Source: Capillidium heterosporum (Eukaryota > Entomophthoromycota > Entomophthoromycetes > Entomophthorales > Capillidiaceae). From it: a stretch of DNA of 64,000 bases. The notes beneath the pieces are model-generated. The model did not search any database. It was not told where the DNA came from and saw nothing but the letters and a program-made list of their open reading frames with translations. Position 1 is the first letter of the stretch, and each line of letters opens with the position of its first letter. The translations under genes and the position numbers were made by a program. Of this stretch, positions 11,398 through 37,653 are shown piece after piece. The stretch is from NCBI GenBank assembly GCA_016630905.1, contig WBMQ01000013.1:62001-126000 (forward strand). Reading direction: 5' to 3'.

Positions 11398-12118
11398 TGT
11401 TGGCTGGTCGCCCTCACCAAGTGTCTGGCCACTGGCTCGGACTTCCAGTTGAGTGGGTTCGGCCGAACTTGGTGAATCCTTCGATATGGGACGTGATGTG
11501 TTTATTGTGTTGTGTGCTAGCTAATATAGACGCAGTTGAATCCTTTACAACCAATAAAAATACTTGAAACTTTTAATTCCCGTAAAACTATAGACTAGGA
11601 ATCTCAACTCTAAATTCAAACTAGAAATTGATATCTCAAAACGACCAAAAAGATCTTCAAAACCAACGAAAACCAAATCAACGCATCAAAGGTTCTTCCT
11701 CCCTGAGCATGAGTCCTAATATATATACTGTAGCTCTGGAGAAAACCATAACTTGGCGACCTGTAAGTGAGTTCCTTCTCAACGAAAAAGTAGGATACGT
11801 GTTCTAATAGCAGTAATCTACCACTAAATTTAGGTTTTGATTAATCTGTAATATGGCAATTCGAGAGTCTGAGCTTCAAGGTGGACAAAAGCTATATCCA
11901 TAATGGGAAATCGATCCCAGGAAAATTTAAGTGCACTAGCAGCAATTTAGTATGATGGGAACCAGGTGGATAGCAATTTAAAAACTTGAGAAAAGGATAA
12001 GTGAACAATTAAAATACGTAACCTGAAGCACATTGTCGGGCAGTAGCACAAATGTAGGCTACTTGAAAAAAATAAACTGATGTTCCATATACAATTTAAC
12101 CGAAGAGCTAAGTTAACA
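11398..12118 (+). repeat. Family B LTR, diverged copy (candidate 5' LTR)
   Basis: It starts TGTTGGCTGGTCG and ends near AGTTAACA. It is homologous along its length to 17489-18305 (shared: CCACTGGCT.GGACTTCCAGT, CTAGCTAATATAGAC, the TATATATACTGTAGCTC segment, CATAACTTGG.GACCTG), but much more diverged than the 2801-3611 copy is. Same orientation as the ORFs at 13035-17426, so it could be the 5' LTR of that element or an independent older insertion. Confidence 0.7.
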
Positions 12119-12439
12119 CTCTATAAGATAGTTTAAAAAATTGATATAATACATTAAAGTATACTTTAATAAGAGCTAATCTGCTTTGGCTTTAAAGTTA
12201 TATTTAATAGCAGCCTACTTATTAATCTTTTATGAAAGTAAGGAGACAACCTGTTTTTGGCCAAATATGCTGTTGCAATAGACAAACTAAATCCATTTGG
12301 AAACATATAAATGCTACACTTTCATTAATTTTTTATTAAGTTTTGGATTTTGAATATCTGCTGTTGATTTAGCTTTCTAGCTAGGTTGTAAATTGGACGA
12401 TTGGATAAATTTTCCTTTTTCATAAGTAACTCATGATAG

Positions 12440-12805
12440 CGCTACTACATGACGAAATGCCGCAGGCCACGTGTCACTTTCTCCCTTATTTTTCCTTCGT
12501 TAGAAAGAATGTTCTTATAGGTGATCAAGTTATGACTCTCTTCTGAGCTACGATATATATATCGAAGCTTGCACAGAAAGAGAGAGATCTTCTCTTTAAT
12601 TCAAGATTTTGGATTTTTTTCTTAGATTGGATTTCGATTTTTGTGAGATCTTTAGGGTTTTAAGATTATAGATTTAAATTGGATTAGTTTAATTAAACAT
12701 TTAAAGCATATTAGCCAGTAGTTTTGCAAGGATTAAGAGCTTTGAGTATTTTTATTGGTTGTAAAGGATTCAACTGCGTCTATATTAGCTAGCCCACAAA
12801 AGTTT
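12440..12805 (-). repeat. Family B LTR fragment, minus orientation
   Basis: On the minus strand it runs from GGGCTAGCTAATATAGACGC through the pyrimidine-rich and TATATATATCGTAGCTC segments to the CATAACTTG block, matching the middle of the other family B LTRs. It is inverted relative to the neighbouring LTR at 11398-12118 and to the downstream gag, so the 5' end of this element is rearranged or nested. Confidence 0.7.
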
Positions 12806-13034
12806 TTAATTATATTGTCCCGGTTTTGAGGACAAACCCGTAGTTTAGTTAGAACATTAGTATAGGCAGTCATTTGACAGAAGCGCCGATTGATTATATC
12901 AGTACTATTCACACCATTGAGTTTGATCACTACACGCAACCAACCAGCTAGTGACACTACAACATTACTGTTCAGCAAGCAACAATAGCAGTAAAGCAGA
13001 GATAGAAGGATCAGTAATACAGGCAATCAATAAC

Positions 13035-16000
13035 ATGGACTATTCGCACGCATTGGAAATGGAGCAAACACAGTCACGGTTGTGCGGAACGGAGGGAGTT
13101 GGTGAGGACTCCAATAAATGTGGAGCTGGCATGGGATCATTCCCAGGCATTGAGGTAGATTTTATGCAGGCATGCGCCATTAAGGGAGAGTGGCCCGAAG
13201 TTGACAGCCCAATCCGCGCTACGTTACCAACTTATTCGGGGACTGTTGGTAGATTGATAGCAGGGACGGGTGAGCAGCTTCCGCAGCTTTGTGCATGTGT
13301 GGTGGCAGTTATTTTGGGACTTGTGGTCCAGTGGACACCCGCAGAGACGTTGGGTGTATTGGGTCTCAATACTGTGCTCACTATAGTTGGGCTGATAGTA
13401 GCTCTCAGCAATTATGGGGCAGCTGCAGCGTCTGAGAGGCTGGCGTCTGCAGTCACCATGGCTGCGACCCGTGGTGATGGCAAGTGGGCGGTTACTACTG
13501 GGCATTTACTAACCATGATTGTCAAGGACAGCGATTGGACGTTTCTTAAGACTGCTGGTTTTAGGCTTATACCTGCGGCCCGTTATGCCTCCATGGCTGT
13601 TGGGCTGGCAACAGCAGCAATGTATAAGCAAGGATTTAATTTTGAGCAGGCTGGAGTGGCAACCATGGCTACAAGTGCAACCATGGTGGCTGCGGGCATG
13701 GGTTTTGACGCGATTCAGCTCAGAGTTGGGTCTTCGTTTAGTAAAGTCGGGCGTGCAGATGTTGCCAGGATATTACGCTATGTAAGTAAGGGAGAGTATA
13801 CATACCATTCTGAAGGTTGTGGCACTCATGGCAGCCAACCGTCTGCTATTGAAGACCTTGATGTGAGTGGCACATGTGCAGTGGCTTTGGTCGGGGATAT
13901 AGTTCAACCAATTCCAAGCGGGATAGCGGTTACGCGGGCGTTGCGTTATAGCTACAATTGCCGCGGAGGTGTTGCAAGTGGAAATGTGACTACTCCGGCT
14001 GGAATCTTGTCAGCCAACGGTTTCGCTGCAAATGGCTCGATGTATCGTAGTCAGGCAAGTGGAATATTTGGGCGGTACACGGAACGCTTGGCGGTGGCTG
14101 CAAATGGAGGGGGAAAGTTCAGTGTCGCTTCCACCATTGCGTACCGTGGCGGAATTGACAAATATGTGTATTGTGATGTAGTAGTGAAAGTAGACCCATT
14201 AATTGTGCATGTAGGAGTTGGTAAGGTCCCGGTGGCCGTGAGCGACGAGGAGCAGAAAAATTACTTTAAGACTATTGTACCCAGTGAATATACTCAACTG
14301 GATGGGCATATCCAGCTGGATGATGAAGCAGTCGATACGGCGTTTCGGCTACTTGCGCAAGGATCAAGTCTTAGATCAGCAATGGGAACGCAGGTTGGTG
14401 ATATGGCCGTGCAACCTGCCAAGTGGTCTTTATTATTTGGGGAGCCATTAGTTATGGATGACATTGCTGAGAAAGTTAGGCGGCATGGTACAGTCATGTT
14501 GGGATGGAATCACCTCCAGATGCGGGTCACAGCTAACGTGTATTATCGTGTGGTCGTTGGTATCATGGGCGTCAATCTCCTTATAGCCGTTGCAGCAGTG
14601 CTCTCATATGTAAGGGTGGGTATATCCCTCAAGGTGTTGCCTTGGCTTGGGCGTGATGCAGGGAAGTTTATTCCATTAGGAAGCTGTTTGTATATGGTTG
14701 AGAGCACTATCTCTGCACACTGTAATGGTAATACATTATGCTTCGTGGGTGACAGTTGTGTTGACAATGGCAAAATACGACACTGTACTGTTAGTGCAGC
14801 ATGTGAACAAGTGTGTGAGATGAGAATCGGTGCCAAGTATGCGGGCTATACCGACAGTAGGTCAGCAATGGATTTGATTGCGGTAGATGATGAATTGACG
14901 ACCAGCAAGTTGCGTTCCCTGGCACAGTTTGCTACTGATGGGGATGTCCAATTGATGTCAGAGCTAAAAGAGTGCAACACAGTGCCGCTGGTGGTGTTAC
15001 GCAATGAGGAAGGGAATTCAGAAGTATTGAACTTGCCCCAATTGGCTGCATGGAGTGGTTGCCATTGGAAGCAAGGAGATGTACCACCGTTAGGTGCTAG
15101 TGATCTATTACCGTCAATAAAGCCTTGTATGGGGCAACATCAGGCTTATGTAGATACTGGGAGAAGCCGCGATGTTTATAACCAGGAGGCCAATATGATG
15201 AATTACAAAGAATACCAGTACCGCCAGCCGCAGGACTTGAGAATAGCCCGATTTAACGGTAATGAAGCTGTGGCAGAAAGCTTCATCGAGATCTACGAGC
15301 GGCAAGCCAACACCATGGGGTGGAACGATTACCAGAAGGCTGCCAACTTTTCCATGTACATTGACTCTAAATTATGGAACTGGCTACTATTTGTCCGAGA
15401 TGAGACGTGGCCTCAATTGAGAGCGAGATTCCTGGATAACTTTACGGCCACCGAATCCGCTGGAGTTGCACTCGAGCGTCTTAGCACAATGAGGCAGGCA
15501 CTTGATGAGAAGTTATCCCACTACCTCACCCGGTTCGATCACCAGGTGACTCGCATCCCCAAAACGATGCTCCAGTCCTTGCTTATCGAGATCTTTGCCG
15601 ATTCCCTCAAACCGGCTCTAAGGGCAAGAAGCTTAGACCATATCCTAGGTTGTAAAACATTGAAGGAAGCAATCCATTTAACTACGGAGATTAATCGCAG
15701 GTGGTCACTAGATGGTCCTTACCGGGGAATAGACCATCTGTGGCCAAATTCCCAAGCTATTATAGCCAGTTCAAACCAACTTCCAGCAACTAGATCACAA
15801 GAGGTACCGATTGGCTATCAAGATCCCCAAGCTACAGCCATAGCGACCCAAAGCTCACTAGAAGTCAAGCAGGATGCGATCTTTGGGATCTTGAAGAAAC
15901 TCACAGTGGCCATGGAAGATCTTCATCCACGTTGTTATAACTGCGACCAAGTGGGCCATTTGAGTCATCAATGTAGAGCACCGCGAAGGTCGGGAACTGG

Positions 16001-16304
16001 GAGGGCCCCAATAAGCGACACTGGAGACCCTCAAAGTAATAGACTGCAAGAAGATCCACTAGGCATGACTTCAGATGCGATGAACCACGCTGTTTTGACT
16101 TGGTCCCAAGCAGAGGAATTGCACAGAAAATTAGCGGAAGCCAAGAGAAACCCAGCTTTAAAAGCAAGGCTGGGAGCCAGATTGAATGAGAGAGGAAACA
16201 GGGTTGGCAGAGGAGAACCCTACAGTGAAGCACAAACGTCCAGGCCATATATCTACCCAGGGATTGAAACACTCGGTGCCAACACACACAGTAGGAAATC
16301 GTAG
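13035..16304 (+). CDS. Retrotransposon ORF: unknown membrane-protein domain fused to Gag and CCHC zinc knuckle
   Basis: A single open frame runs for 1089 residues from ATG 13035 (the frame is open slightly farther upstream without an ATG). Residues 1 to about 700 match no family I know. They are rich in Gly/Ala/Val, with hydrophobic segments near 85-100, 105-124, 183-196 and 208-225, a polar middle, another strong membrane segment near 502-525, and a cysteine-rich stretch near 548-595. From about residue 720 (around 15196) the protein becomes a Ty3/Gypsy-type Gag (YIDSKLWNWLLF, then a helical capsid-like region to about 940), followed by a CCHC knuckle, CYNCDQVGHLSHQC, near residue 966. The region is visibly richer in G/C than the host genes. 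The protease lies downstream in other frames. The first 700 residues may be a captured host gene or an element-specific domain. Confidence 0.75.
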   Translation: MDYSHALEMEQTQSRLCGTEGVGEDSNKCGAGMGSFPGIEVDFMQACAIKGEWPEVDSPIRATLPTYSGTVGRLIAGTGEQLPQLCACVVAVILGLVVQWTPAETLGVLGLNTVLTIVGLIVALSNYGAAAASERLASAVTMAATRGDGKWAVTTGHLLTMIVKDSDWTFLKTAGFRLIPAARYASMAVGLATAAMYKQGFNFEQAGVATMATSATMVAAGMGFDAIQLRVGSSFSKVGRADVARILRYVSKGEYTYHSEGCGTHGSQPSAIEDLDVSGTCAVALVGDIVQPIPSGIAVTRALRYSYNCRGGVASGNVTTPAGILSANGFAANGSMYRSQASGIFGRYTERLAVAANGGGKFSVASTIAYRGGIDKYVYCDVVVKVDPLIVHVGVGKVPVAVSDEEQKNYFKTIVPSEYTQLDGHIQLDDEAVDTAFRLLAQGSSLRSAMGTQVGDMAVQPAKWSLLFGEPLVMDDIAEKVRRHGTVMLGWNHLQMRVTANVYYRVVVGIMGVNLLIAVAAVLSYVRVGISLKVLPWLGRDAGKFIPLGSCLYMVESTISAHCNGNTLCFVGDSCVDNGKIRHCTVSAACEQVCEMRIGAKYAGYTDSRSAMDLIAVDDELTTSKLRSLAQFATDGDVQLMSELKECNTVPLVVLRNEEGNSEVLNLPQLAAWSGCHWKQGDVPPLGASDLLPSIKPCMGQHQAYVDTGRSRDVYNQEANMMNYKEYQYRQPQDLRIARFNGNEAVAESFIEIYERQANTMGWNDYQKAANFSMYIDSKLWNWLLFVRDETWPQLRARFLDNFTATESAGVALERLSTMRQALDEKLSHYLTRFDHQVTRIPKTMLQSLLIEIFADSLKPALRARSLDHILGCKTLKEAIHLTTEINRRWSLDGPYRGIDHLWPNSQAIIASSNQLPATRSQEVPIGYQDPQATAIATQSSLEVKQDAIFGILKKLTVAMEDLHPRCYNCDQVGHLSHQCRAPRRSGTGRAPISDTGDPQSNRLQEDPLGMTSDAMNHAVLTWSQAEELHRKLAEAKRNPALKARLGARLNERGNRVGRGEPYSEAQTSRPYIYPGIETLGANTHSRKS

Positions 16305-16875
16305 AGGAAGCCAAGGAACTCAATACAATAATCAATTTACGGTTGGAAAAGGATTTGAAGCAGTAATAACCCAACCGTTACCCTCAAGGTTGCAACAAGA
16401 GTTTGAAATACCCATCTCGATGACAATGAACCAACAATCAGTACTTGCAGTAAAACCAGTGGCAACCTCACTGAGACGAGTGGAAGAGACCCAGATGCAA
16501 GTAGAGGAAGCTACGCAACTTGAACTTCATTGCTCCTCAATAAACCCTGGCGTATTCACAAGAAATAATCTTCAGGATGGTGAAAGCAGCGGCAATTCAT
16601 ATTACAGTTTCGAGAATACAGCGTATATCCAATACGGAGATTCCACTAATGGCAGTATGCCATCCTTAGGACAGAATGACCAGGCGATATTTTTTCAAGA
16701 ATCCAAAGCATCATTTCAAAACAACAAAGGAAGGCTCCTCAAGAAATCAGCAGTACAACAAGTACCACTGGAGGAGGATCAGATGCATGAAGATCAATCC
16801 AGCTATAAGGAAAGGAACATAATTTCATCAGTGAGAGATGAAAGAGAGCAGTCAGAGGAGTTATCACAGGACTAA
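16186..16875 (+). pseudogene. Family B gag-pro linker region, frame-shifted
   Basis: An open frame of about 229 codons overlaps the end of the Gag ORF in another frame and is rich in Gln, Glu, Ser and Asn. It has no recognisable domain. It sits between nucleocapsid and protease, where Ty3/Gypsy polyproteins have a variable linker. Overlap in a different frame could be a natural frameshift or decay; the further shifts downstream favour decay. Confidence 0.5.
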
Positions 16876-17426
16876 AGAGCATTCAAGTCATTCCCAGCTA
16901 TCGGACAACGCTTACGAAGAAGCACAGCTTGGAATTACTCTCCCACTAAAGACAGCACGGGAAAATCCTCAGCTTCGAACAAGGTTAGATCAGACATTTC
17001 AAGGTTTCGAGATAAAAAATTCCTTTGCAAGACAGCAGTTTACATGGTCCAGCGATCATGCAGCAGCAGTAAAGGGCGTTGTGGACGGATTCCCAGCTCA
17101 GATTATCATTGGCACAGGATGTAGCGGAGTGGTACTGTCTCAAGGGTTCTACAATCGATTTCACTTGGTAGAAGATGGAGAAGTACCTATTGCCATTGGT
17201 ACAGCAGGAGGGCCTACCTCGTCAAGAACGACGTAAAGCTTTCGAAAAAGTTACCATCTCTATTGAAGGAGTAACAGCTCAAATCCCGGCAGTGGTATTG
17301 CCGGGAGATCACTACGACGTATTATTAGGAATGAGCTGGTTGAAGCGGGTGGGTGCAGTAATCAACTGCGCCACAGATATGGTCACCATAGGGTCGGTGT
17401 CTATCCCTATTTTCAACCAATCCTGA
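16838..17426 (+). pseudogene. Family B retropepsin, split over two frames
   Basis: The first part (16838-17236) carries IIIGTGCSGVVLSQGF, the retropepsin active-site strand, with GTG where the catalytic DTG/DSG aspartate belongs. The second part (17175-17426, next frame) carries YDVLLGMSWLKRVGAVINC, the C-terminal half typical of Ty3/Gypsy proteases. The frameshift near 17200-17236 and the lost aspartate indicate a dead protease. After 17426 a little more coding-like sequence runs into the 3' LTR at 17489. No reverse transcriptase, RNase H or integrase is present. Confidence 0.75.
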
Positions 17427-17488
17427 CTCACAAAGGGTGCGACGATCTTGGAAGCCACTTATTTGGAGAAACTAGTACAAGGCTCTAT

Positions 17489-18305
17489 TGTATGCTGGTC
17501 GATCTCGCCAAGTGTTTGACCACTGGCTTAGGACTTCCAGTCAAATGGGTTCAGCCGAGCTTAGTGAGTCCTTCAGCAGGGGATGTAATGTTTATATCGT
17601 ATTGTAGGCTAGCTAATATAGACACGGTGGCTGCTTTACAATCAATAAAATATACAAACTTAATTCTTGCAAAACTATCGGCTAGGAATCCTTTAAAACA
17701 CTTAATCAAAACTTAAATCTACGATTTGGGAGAACCTACAAAGAAAATCAACTCTGATAAACCAACTCAGAGGTGCTCTTTTTCTCTAATGAAAGCAATC
17801 CAGAAAATCATTTTTCCTTTTCTATTCTTTTCACTCTTTGTCTTTCTCTTCTCTCGTTGTTCTTTTCTTCTCTCCTCTTCCGTTCCCCTCTTTTTCTTCC
17901 CTTTCTTCACTATATATACTGTAGCTCAAAAGTAAGGACATAACTTGGAGGCCTGCAAATAGGTTCTTTTCCAATGAAATGGAGGGTCCGTGTCCTAGTT
18001 GTAGTTGTCCACCCTAGCAGTTAGGACTCACTTTCTCTGCAAGACAAGAATCATGAGAATCTGAAATCAAATCTAAACCAAGGCTACATCCTTAATGAGA
18101 GATTGATACCAAGCAAGTTAAACGAACTGGACATTAATTAGAATAATGAATAATGAGTAGACAGCGACTTAAAGTGTAGGAAAATGATAGGCAATGTGTA
18201 GCCCAAAGCACATTATCGAATAGTAGTAAGATTGTGGCTTTATATACGAAAAATACAAATAATCCAGTGTTTAACATACAACTTAACCAGAGAATTAAGT
18301 TGATA
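17489..18305 (+). repeat. Family B LTR (3' LTR of the gag-pro element)
   Basis: It starts TGTATGCTGGTCG right after the protease remnant and ends near AAGTTGATA. It is nearly identical to the inverted copy at 2801-3611 and clearly diverged from 11398-12118. Peptide-like open frames inside it (17492-17716 and 17726-17935) are by-products of the LTR, as shown by the same frames in the other copy. Confidence 0.85.
17903..17927 (+). promoter_or_regulatory. Conserved TATA-like segment of family B LTR
   Basis: CTATATATACTGTAGCTC follows a pyrimidine-rich tract. The same arrangement is kept in all four family B LTR copies (about 3175-3197, 11717-11740, 12545-12565 and here) although the flanks have diverged, so it is a plausible U3 core promoter. 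Confidence 0.45.
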
Positions 18306-18746: not shown

Positions 18747-19062
18747 TGTAACAATGGTTGTTACCTTTAATTAAGGTCATTGACCAATTTTTTGCACACT
18801 ATATATTTTATCTCTAAATCTCGATTTACTTTCCATTATATCTATTCGACAGAATCTGTTCTATTATTAGATATTCTTGACATTTCCCTATTCGTAATCT
18901 CGGCTATAAGTGAACCCCAGCTATACCAGCATAGCATTTTAATATCGGATTCGGATATTCAGCAAGTTGCCAAATCCGAAAGGTATTAACCCTTGAACCA
19001 TTGAGGCTGGTATCTGCATACACTGCTTTTCTAATACTTACTTCACTCTTGATTCACCATCA
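18747..19062 (+). repeat. Family A 5' LTR (316 bp)
   Basis: It begins TGTAACAATGG and ends ACCATCA, pairing with 20764-21135. It is about 56 bases shorter than its partner. Many differences are losses of one to a few bases, for example AGTTAGGAACC to AGTGAACC, TATCGGGATT to TATCGGATT and GGGTATTTAAACCC to GGTATTAACCC. Confidence 0.85.
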
Positions 19063-19214
19063 ACTATAGCGTTGCACAGCCTGACGTTTCCTTCCATAGC
19101 TGTCTTGACAGCCTATCTGTTCCCTGCATAGCTGTCTCTGACAGCCTGATTCTGTTTCGTCTACGAATAAAGTATTGTTCCTGGTCAGCCTTTTAGTTAT
19201 TAGATCGTGCGAAT

Positions 19215-20768
19215 ATGTGGTTCGACTTCTATACCCTCTTAGCTCACTCCGTTCAAACTTTCTTCGCTTCCCTTTGGACTTACCTCCTTTGGGTGATTCA
19301 TATTACCAATGCTGTGGTCGGCATTGGTTCTACTGTCCCAACCTCTCATGTCATACGCTCCCATTATGACACCATCATTAGTTGGATTCAACGGCACCCC
19401 CTAGGACCTTACAGTTTGTCAAGATCTCTAACCGACTCCATGCCAGCCCATTCCAATGCTCTGGTTCTGTCGGCCCTGCTCCCTGGATGTATTGCCCTAG
19501 GGATTTGCCTCCATCACGCCAATATCCTGCCAATGATCGCCCCTACTCAAGTTTCCCAAAGCCTGTTGACCCCCAACATAGAACAGGTAGAAAGCTTAAT
19601 CCAAACTCAAGAAGTGTTGGATTCGGTTGACGAAATTACTACTACCAGACATGTGAAAGCTCCACAGGAAAGTAACGCCTTCAAATATAGCCATGCTACC
19701 ACCCCTGAGAGAACCAAGTCGAGAGTTCCTTCAAAGTTCCCAAAGACTCGGACTAAATTATCCCAGGTGGAGATTACAAGGCGCAGAGTCAATAACCTTT
19801 GTTTTTACTGTGCCTCCAATGCCCATCACGTTGGTAAATGCCCCATCAAGAGTAATTTTAAACAGGGCAGCACCAAGTTTCCAATAAGCTCAATACGTCC
19901 TACCTTGAGCAAGCTAGACCCGTACAAAGCACTAGCAAACTCCTTCATCACTAGTTCCCACCAACACTTACTCCTTCCTGTAACATTAGAGTTGGAAACT
20001 CCCATCCACACCTTTGCCTTAATTGATACTGGAGCTACCGACAATTTAATCTCTCAGAAGCTGGTAGATGCCACTTCGGAAATTACTAAGTTAGATTCCC
20101 TCAGGCCTAGGTATCAAGGACTAATGGATTCCTCTCGAAATCCTAATACCAGGCGAGCGAAGATCCCCTTCTCTCTATTATCATCTAAGAAAAACTCACC
20201 ATTGTCTTACACCATTGATCCTATATGTCAACGAGATATACCATTCCCACTTGTACTGGGACTACCCTGGATAGCCCAGGCAAAACCCACCATTAACTGG
20301 GATCGGAAAACAGTAGACATTCAAGATCAGGAGTTTAGAGGCCTCAACAAGTACCCTGATCCATTAGAAGTTCTCACAGGAGAATCATTAAGCATCTCAT
20401 TACTTCCGAGACCTAGTCAGATAGCTAGTTATGAAAATGCTCTACCCCGTCCCCCAGAGCAGCATCGGTGCCATTGTGGAAAGGATAGTTCAAACCAAAG
20501 TCGCCCTGGAAGCAAACAAGCTCTACCGAATGCACAAAGTAAGAAACCTGACCAAATAGTTGCAGCGAAGTATCTTAGTCCAAAGTTAGATACCCCTCAA
20601 GCCCATGAAAAGCAAACCCGACCAGCAGAAGGATGGATCCGTCATATTGCTACTACTCAACCTCAGCCCAACAGGTGGGCTGAATGGAAGCAGAAGTGCT
20701 ACTTGACTAAACCTCACTGCAGGACTAGCAAGCTTTATGGGAAAAGAGAAAGAAAGGGGATAGTGTAA
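19215..20768 (+). CDS. LTR-A polyprotein: hydrophobic N-terminus, CCHC knuckle, retropepsin
   Basis: A 517-residue intact frame starts at ATG 19215. The first about 115 residues contain two hydrophobic stretches (around TYLLWVIHITNAVVGIG and ALVLSALLPGCIALGICLHH) and no clear capsid domain. A CCHC knuckle, CFYCASNAHHVGKC, lies near residue 196, and a retropepsin with intact FALIDTGATDNLIS near residue 267 plus FPLVLGLPWI near 345. The C-terminal basic tail (KRERKG) is encoded by the polypurine tract, and the stop codon TAA lies inside the 3' LTR. The intact DTG and long open frame suggest fairly recent function as packaging and processing protein for a non-autonomous element. Confidence 0.8.
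   Translation: MWFDFYTLLAHSVQTFFASLWTYLLWVIHITNAVVGIGSTVPTSHVIRSHYDTIISWIQRHPLGPYSLSRSLTDSMPAHSNALVLSALLPGCIALGICLHHANILPMIAPTQVSQSLLTPNIEQVESLIQTQEVLDSVDEITTTRHVKAPQESNAFKYSHATTPERTKSRVPSKFPKTRTKLSQVEITRRRVNNLCFYCASNAHHVGKCPIKSNFKQGSTKFPISSIRPTLSKLDPYKALANSFITSSHQHLLLPVTLELETPIHTFALIDTGATDNLISQKLVDATSEITKLDSLRPRYQGLMDSSRNPNTRRAKIPFSLLSSKKNSPLSYTIDPICQRDIPFPLVLGLPWIAQAKPTINWDRKTVDIQDQEFRGLNKYPDPLEVLTGESLSISLLPRPSQIASYENALPRPPEQHRCHCGKDSSNQSRPGSKQALPNAQSKKPDQIVAAKYLSPKLDTPQAHEKQTRPAEGWIRHIATTQPQPNRWAEWKQKCYLTKPHCRTSKLYGKRERKGIV
20741..20760 (+). other. Polypurine tract of LTR-A element
   Basis: An uninterrupted run of G and A (GAAAAGAGAAAGAAAGGGGA) lies three bases before the 3' LTR start at 20764. 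This is the position and composition expected of the plus-strand DNA primer of LTR retrotransposons. Confidence 0.75.
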
Positions 20769-21135
20769 CAACCCTGGTTGTTACAATTCCTAATCTAAGG
20801 TCATTGACCAATTTTCTTTGCACACTATACTATTTTCTTTCTCTTACCAATCTTCGATTTTCTACTTTCCATTTATATCTAGTTTCGAACAGAAATCTGT
20901 TCTATTTATTAGATATTCTTGACAATTTCCCATATTCGTAATCTCGGCTATAAGTTAGGAACCCCAGCTATTACCAGCATAGCATTTTAATATCGGGATT
21001 CGGATATTCAGCAAGTATTGCCAAGATACCGAAAGGGTATTTAAACCCTTGGAATGCCATTGAAGGCTGGTATCTTGACAACGTTCCACCTCGCTATTTT
21101 CTAAATAGCTGTTACTCACCTCTTGATTATTATCA
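20764..21135 (+). repeat. Family A 3' LTR (372 bp)
   Basis: It begins TGTAACAACCCTGG, with an inverted TGTAACAA/TTGTTACA pair at the start, and ends TATTATCA. It is more complete than the 5' LTR and closer in length to the minus-strand copy at 1521-1881. Confidence 0.85.
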
Positions 21136-35838: not shown

Positions 35839-37653
35839 CTAATTGAGATGCTCCAAACTCTTAGAATCAACGACTTTGCAGTAAGAGACTTTGAAGTCCA
35901 ATTGGAGGAACCTACCTTCAACCTGCTCCTGGTCATCCTCATCACCCTTCCAAGGCGTGATTAGGCTAACAACGTGCTGCTCTTCGACCATCTTTTGCAA
36001 CGCCTGCGAGTTCAAAGGGTTTTGGGCGTGAGAGTGAGTAGGGCTAGGGCTGAACTGGAACCAGGAGCGCATGTTGGGAGTGTATAAGACGGCTCGCTTA
36101 GGCTTAGGTGGCAAAGCGATGTCCTTCTGGTTGGAGGCGAGGGCAGAAGAGGTTGAGGAACCATCTTCGATACGAAGGTAGTTGGTATGACGATCTTCAG
36201 ATCGAATAGCGTTCTGGGCAAATCTATATAACATAGGCAAGGTAGCCTCCCTAATGGCAGGCAGCTTGGCAGTGAAAATTCGGTCGATTATTTTGTTGTT
36301 GGACTTGGAGACGAAGTTACGGCGGTAGGCCACCTGGTCGTTAGCATTTGCAGGTACGGAAGGAGCTATCAATTTGGAAACTTCACCGATGCGTAAGGTG
36401 GTGACGGGGGCTGGAACTGAAACCAAACCATTGTGGACTTGCTGCTTAGCTGACATATCGAAATTGAAATTGAAAGCGCCGATTACAAAGAGGATGATAA
36501 GGAGGAAGGTAGGCAAGATGGCATTGAAGCTACGTACGTTGCGGGTATCAACTTCGACTTCCTCCTTAATCTCAAAAAAAGAACTGATATCCTCTTCCAT
36601 AGGCTGATCGTCCATCTGAGCTTCGCCTTCGGGGATAGGGCCCAAGCTATCAAGTTGGTCGAGGAACCGTTGGGGGTTGGGAACTTGATTTGCCATATCG
36701 CGGACCAAACCTTCTAAACAACGTACCCGATCGATCAACTGGACATTGCGTTGGACCAAAACCTTGTTGTCGGACTCCAGCTGGGACATGTGCTCTTTCT
36801 TCTTCTGTCGAGAGATCTGGGCCGACTGGCGGTTGCGGATCAACCGTTCGTTCTTCTTGAGCAACGTACGCTTACGGTACGCTTCAGCGCTGTCGGGGAG
36901 CTTGATAACCTCTTGAGCCAATTTCTGGGTAACGGCGTTCAACAAGGGTTTCGTCTCGAACATATCGTTGGCGCTAGGGCCCATCTGCACGGGGACGTAG
37001 ACTTCGGGGCTGGTGCGTTGTGGTTTAGGGGCCAAGATAGGCATACCGGGAGTTAGGGGTAAGGTAGCTTCTACGATGGGTTGAACCTTCTTCTTGCGGC
37101 CACGCTTACCTTTGGGCTTTTCAAAGCTTGTCTGATTGACGGAAGAGTGGAGGGCGCCGTGATTGTAGCTTGAGAACTCTAAGGAGAGATGGTGTTCGCT
37201 CGAACTAGACGAAATCTCTTGGCTGGAAGGGTGGACGTTCATTGACGTGTCAGACCCTTCATGCGTGTTGACGCAGAAGATCTGGGGGTTCTGGTAGGGT
37301 TGGAACAGGTTAAAGTGCTCTGGTTTCACCTGGTAGTCGGCCAAAAGGGGGTTCTGGAAGGCGTAGGCGAACTCACTGAACTTGGTAGCCAAAGTAGCAT
37401 CCAGGGCCTGGGGGACTAGAGGTTCAAATAAATTCATCTCGCAGGGATTCCCAGACGACAGCGAGGAAGGGGACCCGTTCTGGTTGAATATAAGGTGGTT
37501 GGGACTGAGACTGTGGCTAGAGCTGGCAAAGTCAGTTACAACCGGTTGAGTGGGCAACTGGGAGTTGGGGCCGGTAGCGCTAGTAGCATCCGAGTACACC
37601 TCCTTATTGATGAAGGTGAAGAACTGGTCGTTGTCGTCGTAGAACTGCTCCAT
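35839..37653 (-). CDS. Membrane-tethered bZIP transcription factor (ATF6/CREB3-like architecture)
   Basis: An intron-less 604-aa protein from ATG 37653. Residues 1-150 are Ser/Pro/Asn/Phe-rich, like an activation domain. KGKRGRKKKVQP (about 181-192) resembles an AT-hook or NLS. The bZIP basic region is at about 265-290 (NERLIRNRQSAQISRQKKK, the N-x-x-S-A-x-x-S-R signature), followed by a leucine zipper to about 315. An acidic linker precedes one strong transmembrane helix at about 378-396 (ILPTFLLIILFVIGAF), then a polar about 208-residue tail expected in the ER lumen. This order matches animal ATF6/CREB3 and plant bZIP17/28, which are released by proteolysis during ER or lipid stress. No classic site-1 RxLL motif is obvious right after the membrane. 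The function as an ER-stress factor is inferred from architecture. Confidence 0.85.
   Translation of the reverse strand: MEQFYDDNDQFFTFINKEVYSDATSATGPNSQLPTQPVVTDFASSSHSLSPNHLIFNQNGSPSSLSSGNPCEMNLFEPLVPQALDATLATKFSEFAYAFQNPLLADYQVKPEHFNLFQPYQNPQIFCVNTHEGSDTSMNVHPSSQEISSSSSEHHLSLEFSSYNHGALHSSVNQTSFEKPKGKRGRKKKVQPIVEATLPLTPGMPILAPKPQRTSPEVYVPVQMGPSANDMFETKPLLNAVTQKLAQEVIKLPDSAEAYRKRTLLKKNERLIRNRQSAQISRQKKKEHMSQLESDNKVLVQRNVQLIDRVRCLEGLVRDMANQVPNPQRFLDQLDSLGPIPEGEAQMDDQPMEEDISSFFEIKEEVEVDTRNVRSFNAILPTFLLIILFVIGAFNFNFDMSAKQQVHNGLVSVPAPVTTLRIGEVSKLIAPSVPANANDQVAYRRNFVSKSNNKIIDRIFTAKLPAIREATLPMLYRFAQNAIRSEDRHTNYLRIEDGSSTSSALASNQKDIALPPKPKRAVLYTPNMRSWFQFSPSPTHSHAQNPLNSQALQKMVEEQHVVSLITPWKGDEDDQEQVEGRFLQLDFKVSYCKVVDSKSLEHLN

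Follow-up and report, generated by a model that had tools for sequence, protein, structure and literature searches.

The Gag proteins of Ty3/Gypsy retrotransposons usually have no built-in transmembrane anchor, and in Ogre/Tat elements an ORF lies upstream of gag. Additional ORFs have been described in plant LTR elements (PMC7264820, accessible text), and MDG1-group Ty3/Gypsy elements (412, Stalker2 and others) carry sORF1/sORF2 upstream of gag (PMC11952523, accessible text). dUTPase is rare in retrotransposons and, before the rotifer elements, was reported only in basidiomycetes, according to the accessible part of PMC5408684.

The window is the whole stretch of DNA analysed here, 64,000 nucleotides long (C5:62001-126000 of a 29.5-Mb genome in 44 contigs). 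It contains a single ATG frame (13035-16304, 1089 codons, no stop) in which about 693 residues are joined to a Ty3/Gypsy-type Gag. We call residues 1-693 of this frame (13035-15114) X and count Gag from residue 694 onward. The coding part of the element is arranged as follows.

13035-15114, forward strand: X domain, residues 1-693, an open frame matching no known family and with one clear homologue in the genome (C32).
15115-16301, forward strand: Gag (capsid and CCHC, by Pfam) continuing into the start of the pol frame; about 79% nucleotide identity to the C32 and C18 copies over 15115-17480.
16302-17480, forward strand: broken start of pol and protease (aspartic protease match weak, below cut-off) with frameshifting indels and no reverse transcriptase after it; homology stops at 17480.

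An earlier note on this DNA had read an uninterrupted ATG frame of 1089 codons running from an N-terminal part into a Ty3/Gypsy Gag with a CCHC knuckle. The frame is indeed open throughout, and Gag matches PF03732 (Retrotrans_gag) and PF00098 (zf-CCHC), both above the Pfam cut-offs. The domain of about 700 residues stands, with 693, but its boundary lies at 15114/15115, where homology to copies lacking X starts, and not at 15195. Two adjacent ORFs with a missed stop or intron between them would not explain the frame, as no stop separates the parts and no intron is needed. A chance ORF is ruled out too: when the X region was simulated 500 times with a Markov model, no open stretch exceeded 213 codons, against 693+ observed. 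The final ~100 residues of the frame are the beginning of the pol frame; gag and pol share one frame here because an indel merges them, and other copies switch frame near the zinc knuckle.

The window element is without its 3' end, homology stopping beside an antisense LTR, and retains only a truncated 5' LTR and a primer-binding site; paired LTRs with a tRNA primer site are present in the C18 copy. In the pieces of relatives scanned, RVT_1 is followed by RNase H and then by the integrase zinc-binding domain, the Ty3/Gypsy order. The C12 relative has a weak Ty3_capsid match, below cut-off, and in the pol frame of the C18 relative the reverse-transcriptase region is preceded by a dUTPase domain (PF00692, E 2e-25; L037:7436-8336). 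From reading, we take the ORFs around the element to be dynein heavy chain, ORC4-like, trypsin-like, RPS2-like and bZIP, a set that suggests a fungal genome. The last, an uninterrupted bZIP-like ORF at 35839-37653, has by eye a hydrophobic segment after the zipper and presumably resembles a membrane-tethered transcription factor.

We tentatively favour, at somewhat less than an even chance, the reading that X anchors Gag to the membrane in cis, in a rare Ty3/Gypsy variant whose LTR end before the primer site is replaced. X would be an old multi-pass membrane module serving as the N-terminus of Gag. In the window it fills the slot of the LTR end, with the truncated 5' LTR on one side and the tRNA-Lys primer site on the other, and the frame reads through this site into Gag. 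With the ectodomain outward and Gag in the cytosol, X could tether assembling Gag to the membrane.

A profile search of residues 1-693 against Pfam and NCBIfam gave no match to X, nor did the PDB; PHROGs returned only noise (best E 0.13; also 0.43) and viral contigs no relative. No homologue of X was found in a set of 5.8 billion proteins, a weak negative because Gag relatives of the fused length were also missing from that set, which may lack the clade. The N-terminal part is what the earlier note took it to be, a protein domain of no known family, predicted to be of membrane type, in frame with Gag and of odd composition.

A hydropathy scan with one threshold marks five segments in the X of the window and seven in that of C32. 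The count of about five hydrophobic segments made from the letters agrees with this, but only three of the five are regarded as membrane segments, to which a weaker one is added by eye. The hydrophobic stretches 281-300 and 378-396 lie inside the ectodomain and were judged non-membrane. The predicted topology is the following.

13284-13418, forward strand: predicted membrane hairpin, residues 84-128 (segments ~84-104 and 109-128), by hydropathy.
13584-13646, forward strand: third likely membrane segment, residues 184-204, placed by eye; only its C32 counterpart is above threshold.
13647-14543, forward strand: predicted ectodomain, residues 205-503, with four Cys and two N-glycosylation motifs.
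14544-14621, forward strand: fourth membrane segment, residues 504-529, as predicted by a hydropathy of 2.5.

The predicted layout is similar in both X proteins (hairpin, third segment, ectodomain of ~300 residues, fourth segment, tail, Gag), and membrane steering of Gag by X would fit this predicted topology. In the window, the membrane-flanking parts presumed to lie inside carry a modest positive charge, whereas after the last C32 segment 4 K+R stand against 5 D+E and the signal is not clear; AlphaFold2 run on X from two sequences gave a pLDDT of 31. Both results weigh against the anchor. The motifs HSxxC, GxC and YSYxCRxG in the ectodomain are common to the window and C32, the Cys positions being only partly conserved. 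A cysteine-rich part had been reported, and the window does have seven Cys in residues 551-594, but these are not conserved in C32.

A predicted ectodomain that is bordered by membrane segments and contains Cys and sites for N-glycosylation would also suit an envelope-like glycoprotein of viral or other foreign source, fused to Gag for cell-to-cell or hyphal transfer. We think this improbable. Protein sets, PDB, PHROGs and viral contigs hold no glycoprotein or fusion-machinery homologue of X, and the partial conservation of Cys argues in the same direction. Three N-terminal membrane segments, as predicted in X, are not the pattern of a typical Env either. On the other side, MDG1-group elements use a small membrane protein, encoded before gag, for cell-to-cell transfer (PMC11952523, accessible text). 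Composition also lends the idea something, as both X sequences are G/T-ending and C3-poor, unlike gag-pol and most host-like ORFs compared.

The third-position frequencies of A/C/G/T are 0.23/0.17/0.28/0.32 in the X of the window and 0.23/0.17/0.29/0.31 in that of C32, and the coding strand has G over C (GC skew +0.24 and +0.21). Codon usage correlates at 0.47 between the two X sequences, at -0.02 to 0.24 between X and family gag or pol, and at -0.09 to -0.34 (window X) or -0.02 to -0.35 (C32 X) with six host ORFs. In a small set of further host-like ORFs, sorted by hand, most are C3-richer than X; the exceptions, L034 (0.16, kind unassigned) and the trypsin-like L030 (0.21), have lower skews (+0.08 and +0.06). 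These values hint at a separate origin of X. The region had been called G/C-richer than the host genes, which is true against ORC4-like (0.37) and trypsin-like (0.45) but not clearly against dynein (0.48) or bZIP (0.51), X having 0.50; the unusual feature is rather the C3-poor coding strand with its excess of G over C.

A genome search with Gag gave at least 23 matches, grouped into at least 13 loci. X is present at two of these, the window and C32:301757-303814, where the frame runs for 851 residues through X into Gag before a frameshift. Using both X proteins, tblastn of the DNA around 11 of the 13 Gag loci (C35 and C1:1.92 Mb not included) gave no X beyond these two. With two Gag loci out of at least 13, X is ruled out as the common Gag matrix of the family, and Gag here does not ordinarily begin with it, in agreement with the first reading. 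Seven X-derived protein queries (E<=0.001, E<=1 and E<=10) found no Gag-less X in the genome, where introns or divergence could hide some; the domain turned up only in the window and C32, both times joined to Gag.

The two X proteins are ~26% identical; in the codon alignment, 146 of 634 residues agree. Their local alignment scores 226, where shuffled sequences average 45-54, and z is 29.4, 20.2 or 13.8 depending on block size (300 shuffles each). Taken alone, the N-terminal and middle thirds each exceed 300 of 300 shuffles; the C-terminal third is reached by 10 of 300, a point against a module of this extent. By these alignments the two copies are homologous, which speaks for X as a module. 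A sequencing, assembly or chance artefact has a negligible probability, since X, its leader and the junction are common to two loci on different contigs.

A stretch of 61-62 residues at C42:1430387-1430569 (L064) has 34% identity to the hairpin region of C32 X, with E 0.115 genome-wide and E 1e-4 against the C42 locus alone; in the latter comparison it gave no match to the window X. It may be the trace of a third X or plain hydrophobic similarity. The stretch lends something to a different account, in which X is a fast-evolving host (or formerly host) membrane-protein family and two of its members were joined to Gag, through insertion or recombination, as chimeric genes with no role in transposition. 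We regard this as the main rival, though less likely than the anchor reading. A fungal Bel-Pao gag-PEX14 fusion is on record (cited in PMC10799480, accessible text), but no X without Gag was found here with the seven queries, and the codon usage of X is unlike that of the six host ORFs.

Both X loci meet Gag at the same base, which is the boundary between LTR and primer-binding site. Five copies without X were compared at this junction (C18, C1, two on C12, and C23; not C41 or the second copies on C18, C1 and C23), and in all five LTR-derived sequence ends at the junction base, partly inverted or rearranged in C1 and C23. The two 590-nt LTRs of the C18 copy, identical at 590 of 590 positions, fix the LTR boundary. 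The primer site directly after it is the complement of the tRNA-Lys(TTT) (anticodon UUU) 3' end plus CCA and matches at 18/18 positions in four copies (C18, C1 and the two on C12), at 17/18 in C32, 16/18 in C23 and 15/18 in the window. The surroundings of the fusion in the window comprise the following features.

11398-12118, reverse strand: complete LTR of the same family, upstream and antisense (LTR profile match).
12362-12799, forward strand: 5' LTR in sense orientation without its last ~112 nt (model positions 2-120 and 330-616 of 728 in a profile of 13 LTR copies).
12800-13034, forward strand: leader of X, of which about 12841-12909 is conserved with C32.
15118-15135, forward strand: remnant of the tRNA-Lys primer site, which forms codons of the fused frame, with three mismatches in the window and one in C32.
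17487-18305, reverse strand: LTR of the same family, antisense, adjoining the truncated element (two profile matches).

An in-frame fusion at one and the same base in both loci, coinciding with the LTR/primer-site boundary, is what a module would give; two chimeric host genes would call for two unrelated events at the same Gag base, and at the same X end as well if the weak C-terminal alignment is right. In the window, leader and X stand where the 5' LTR would otherwise continue for another ~112 nt up to the primer site. Among the partial LTR matches listed (40 of 277 candidates scored), none extends beyond 12799. Upstream of the primer site, an in-frame open stretch with an ATG is found in C18 (30 codons) and one C12 copy (34 codons), and the window LTR stops ~22 nt upstream of the position of this LTR-borne ATG. 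That the LTR ends in such a place supports the proposed role of X as a Gag N-terminus, but the ATG is absent from three of the five X-less copies (31, 22 and 2 open codons), and the second candidate Gag ATG in X-less copies overlaps the primer site.

A pairwise alignment of the window and C32 leaders gives 75% identity over 75 nt at E 1e-9, another match is 82% over 50 nt, and the start-codon context AATAAYATGGA is common to both X copies; this conservation likewise favours a module. A genome-wide DNA search with the leader matched only itself and missed even C32, so that it is insensitive here. In C32, the LTR profile detected no LTR in the ~2.7 kb upstream of X (only a weak 54-nt patch, E 7e-4), and the 3' LTR is ordinary and without X. 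According to the reverse-transcription scheme, replication through this primer site would put X into both LTRs. The C32 arrangement is therefore not the direct product of such a replication cycle and was rearranged. These features of C32 count against a membrane module carried by the element, as do the low number of copies (two) and the broken state of both elements; the broken elements and the lack of a detected LTR upstream of C32 X would suit host genes joined to Gag.

The first repeat search gave inverted repeats; these are same-family LTRs lying in either orientation, and an element with inverted terminal repeats was rejected. In the LTR adjoining gag of L039, the final ~51 bp (L039:5188-5242) are inverted relative to the near-identical C18 copy. 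The C32 element has an antisense LTR of the same family inserted in its pol, accompanied by a 5-bp target duplication (L036:9080-9670).

The window also holds a second LTR element (18747-21127) with a 517-aa Gag-like ORF (19215-20768), a CCHC-like motif recognised by eye and a weak protease match; other copies are 97-100% identical. Of 83 scored genome matches to this ORF, 56 cover only about residues 1-78, and two of them lie 537 bp after full copies. The LTR match of this family to L045 ends at 19413, that is, at codon 67 of the Gag ORF. The hydrophobic first ~67 residues of this Gag thus appear to be LTR-encoded, which makes Gag N-termini read from an LTR plausible in this genome and in this way supports the proposed position of X.

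Synonymous sites were used to compare the ages of the two parts. Among identical X residues with a choice of codon, the codon agrees at 43 of 141, a number equal to the 43.4 that shuffling predicts, which is saturation. For Gag of the window and C18 the figure is 146 of 212 against 80.4 expected, not saturated, and for the first 80 Gag codons of the window and C32 it is 36 of 54 against 26.2 (p 0.0015). Fourfold sites are equal at 18/67 in X, 33/49 in the Gag of the window and C18, and 3/9, a small number, in the first 80 Gag codons of the window and C32. X has kept protein similarity while synonymous similarity was erased, and therefore selection acted on the X protein; the sites being saturated in X and not in Gag, the two X copies parted earlier than the two Gag copies. 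X is an old domain with past selection at the protein level, and both a recent capture and a single fusion handed down intact are ruled out for X-Gag. The earlier suggestion of a very recent capture thus falls. Selection on the protein speaks for the module; the much greater age of the X pair would also be expected of a host family.

C32 and C18 differ at 44 of the first 240 gag columns and at 169 of the 2127 after them (p 1.2e-6), with no such step between the window and C18 (p 0.32) or the window and C32 (p 1.0). By this pattern the C32 copy is a mosaic, as a module exchanged between elements might be. Its gag-pol has two frameshifting indels and eight in-frame stops in 4264 aligned bp, and that of the window four frameshifting indels in 2326 aligned bp, excluding one at the alignment end. 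Neither X contains a stop. At the gag-pol rates 4.8 breaks would be expected in X of C32 and 3.6 in that of the window (chance of none ~0.008 and 0.03), assuming equal exposure, and X, being single-copy, may have been hit differently. We count zero stops in either X against ten disruptions in C32 gag-pol in favour of a selected module, with the reservation that undisrupted X may reflect its single-copy state. RIP-type decay was considered for the C32 breaks; the spectrum is mixed, with C>T highest at CG (21/138), and not decisive.

The intact frame beside a dead protease had been taken as a sign of selection or very recent capture, which is weak by itself. On the window branch the ratio is 0.45-0.48 for Gag, where it also takes in mobile ancestry, and 0.34-0.44 for broken pol; the five other comparisons of each gave 0.08-0.19 (Gag) and 0.16-0.24 (pol). 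As the window Gag is about as loose as broken pol, nothing shows current selection on the fusion, and there is no sign that Gag was selected after mobility was lost, as a domesticated host gene would be. The relaxed Gag branch would suit a neutral relic, in which the element once had X as an ORF of its own before gag and decay happened to join the two frames; LTR elements with additional ORFs in that position have been described (accessible text of PMC11952523 and PMC7264820). There is a slim chance of this, given that neither X locus has a break in the frame at the junction, though their other breaks differ.

Returning to X as a membrane anchor of Gag, X and Gag-pol would have been re-paired at the primer site or close to it, either through strand transfer or through ectopic DNA recombination. 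Re-pairing there would explain both the identical junction and the unequal ages; C32 would additionally need a rearrangement at the DNA level. A bolder version, which we hold to be quite unlikely, is a Ty3/Gypsy lineage with a large membrane glycoprotein-Gag fusion in the LTR/U5 slot that strand transfer could re-pair, having an Env-like function in cis, in membrane assembly or hyphal transfer. More generally, a multi-pass membrane domain joined to Gag exactly where the primer site begins, with halves of unequal age at two loci, would suggest that sequence ahead of this site can serve as an exchangeable protein-coding cassette, and X-Gag offers a direct approach to how non-enveloped retroelements gain membrane attachment.

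In the literature covered, which includes few subscription papers, we met no in-frame multi-pass membrane domain of such size at the primer-site boundary, and titles and abstract openings on gag starting inside an LTR, Gag-transmembrane fusion or N-terminal Gag extension held nothing fitting. The following comparisons refer to the accessible parts of the articles. Plant LTR elements resemble the X-Gag locus in having an extra coding region, sometimes upstream of gag, but as separate ORFs; an in-frame multi-pass membrane fusion was not met there (PMC7264820). Bdelloid LTR elements show modular capture of an env-like or other ORF3 and a dUTPase between PR and RT, the captured ORF lying downstream of pol and unfused to Gag (PMC5408684). 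The PEX14-Gag fusion likewise joins a fungal protein to a retroelement Gag, but it combines a Bel-Pao Gag with a host gene and is a host-TE fusion rather than a module in an LTR slot (cited in PMC10799480). The MDG1 elements likewise encode, ahead of gag and in its orientation, a membrane protein that is located near Gag, but their sORF2 is separate, about 63-110 aa long, and has one hydrophobic domain (PMC11952523). X, in contrast, comprises ~693 aa, is predicted to be multi-pass, and stands in frame with Gag, before the primer site.
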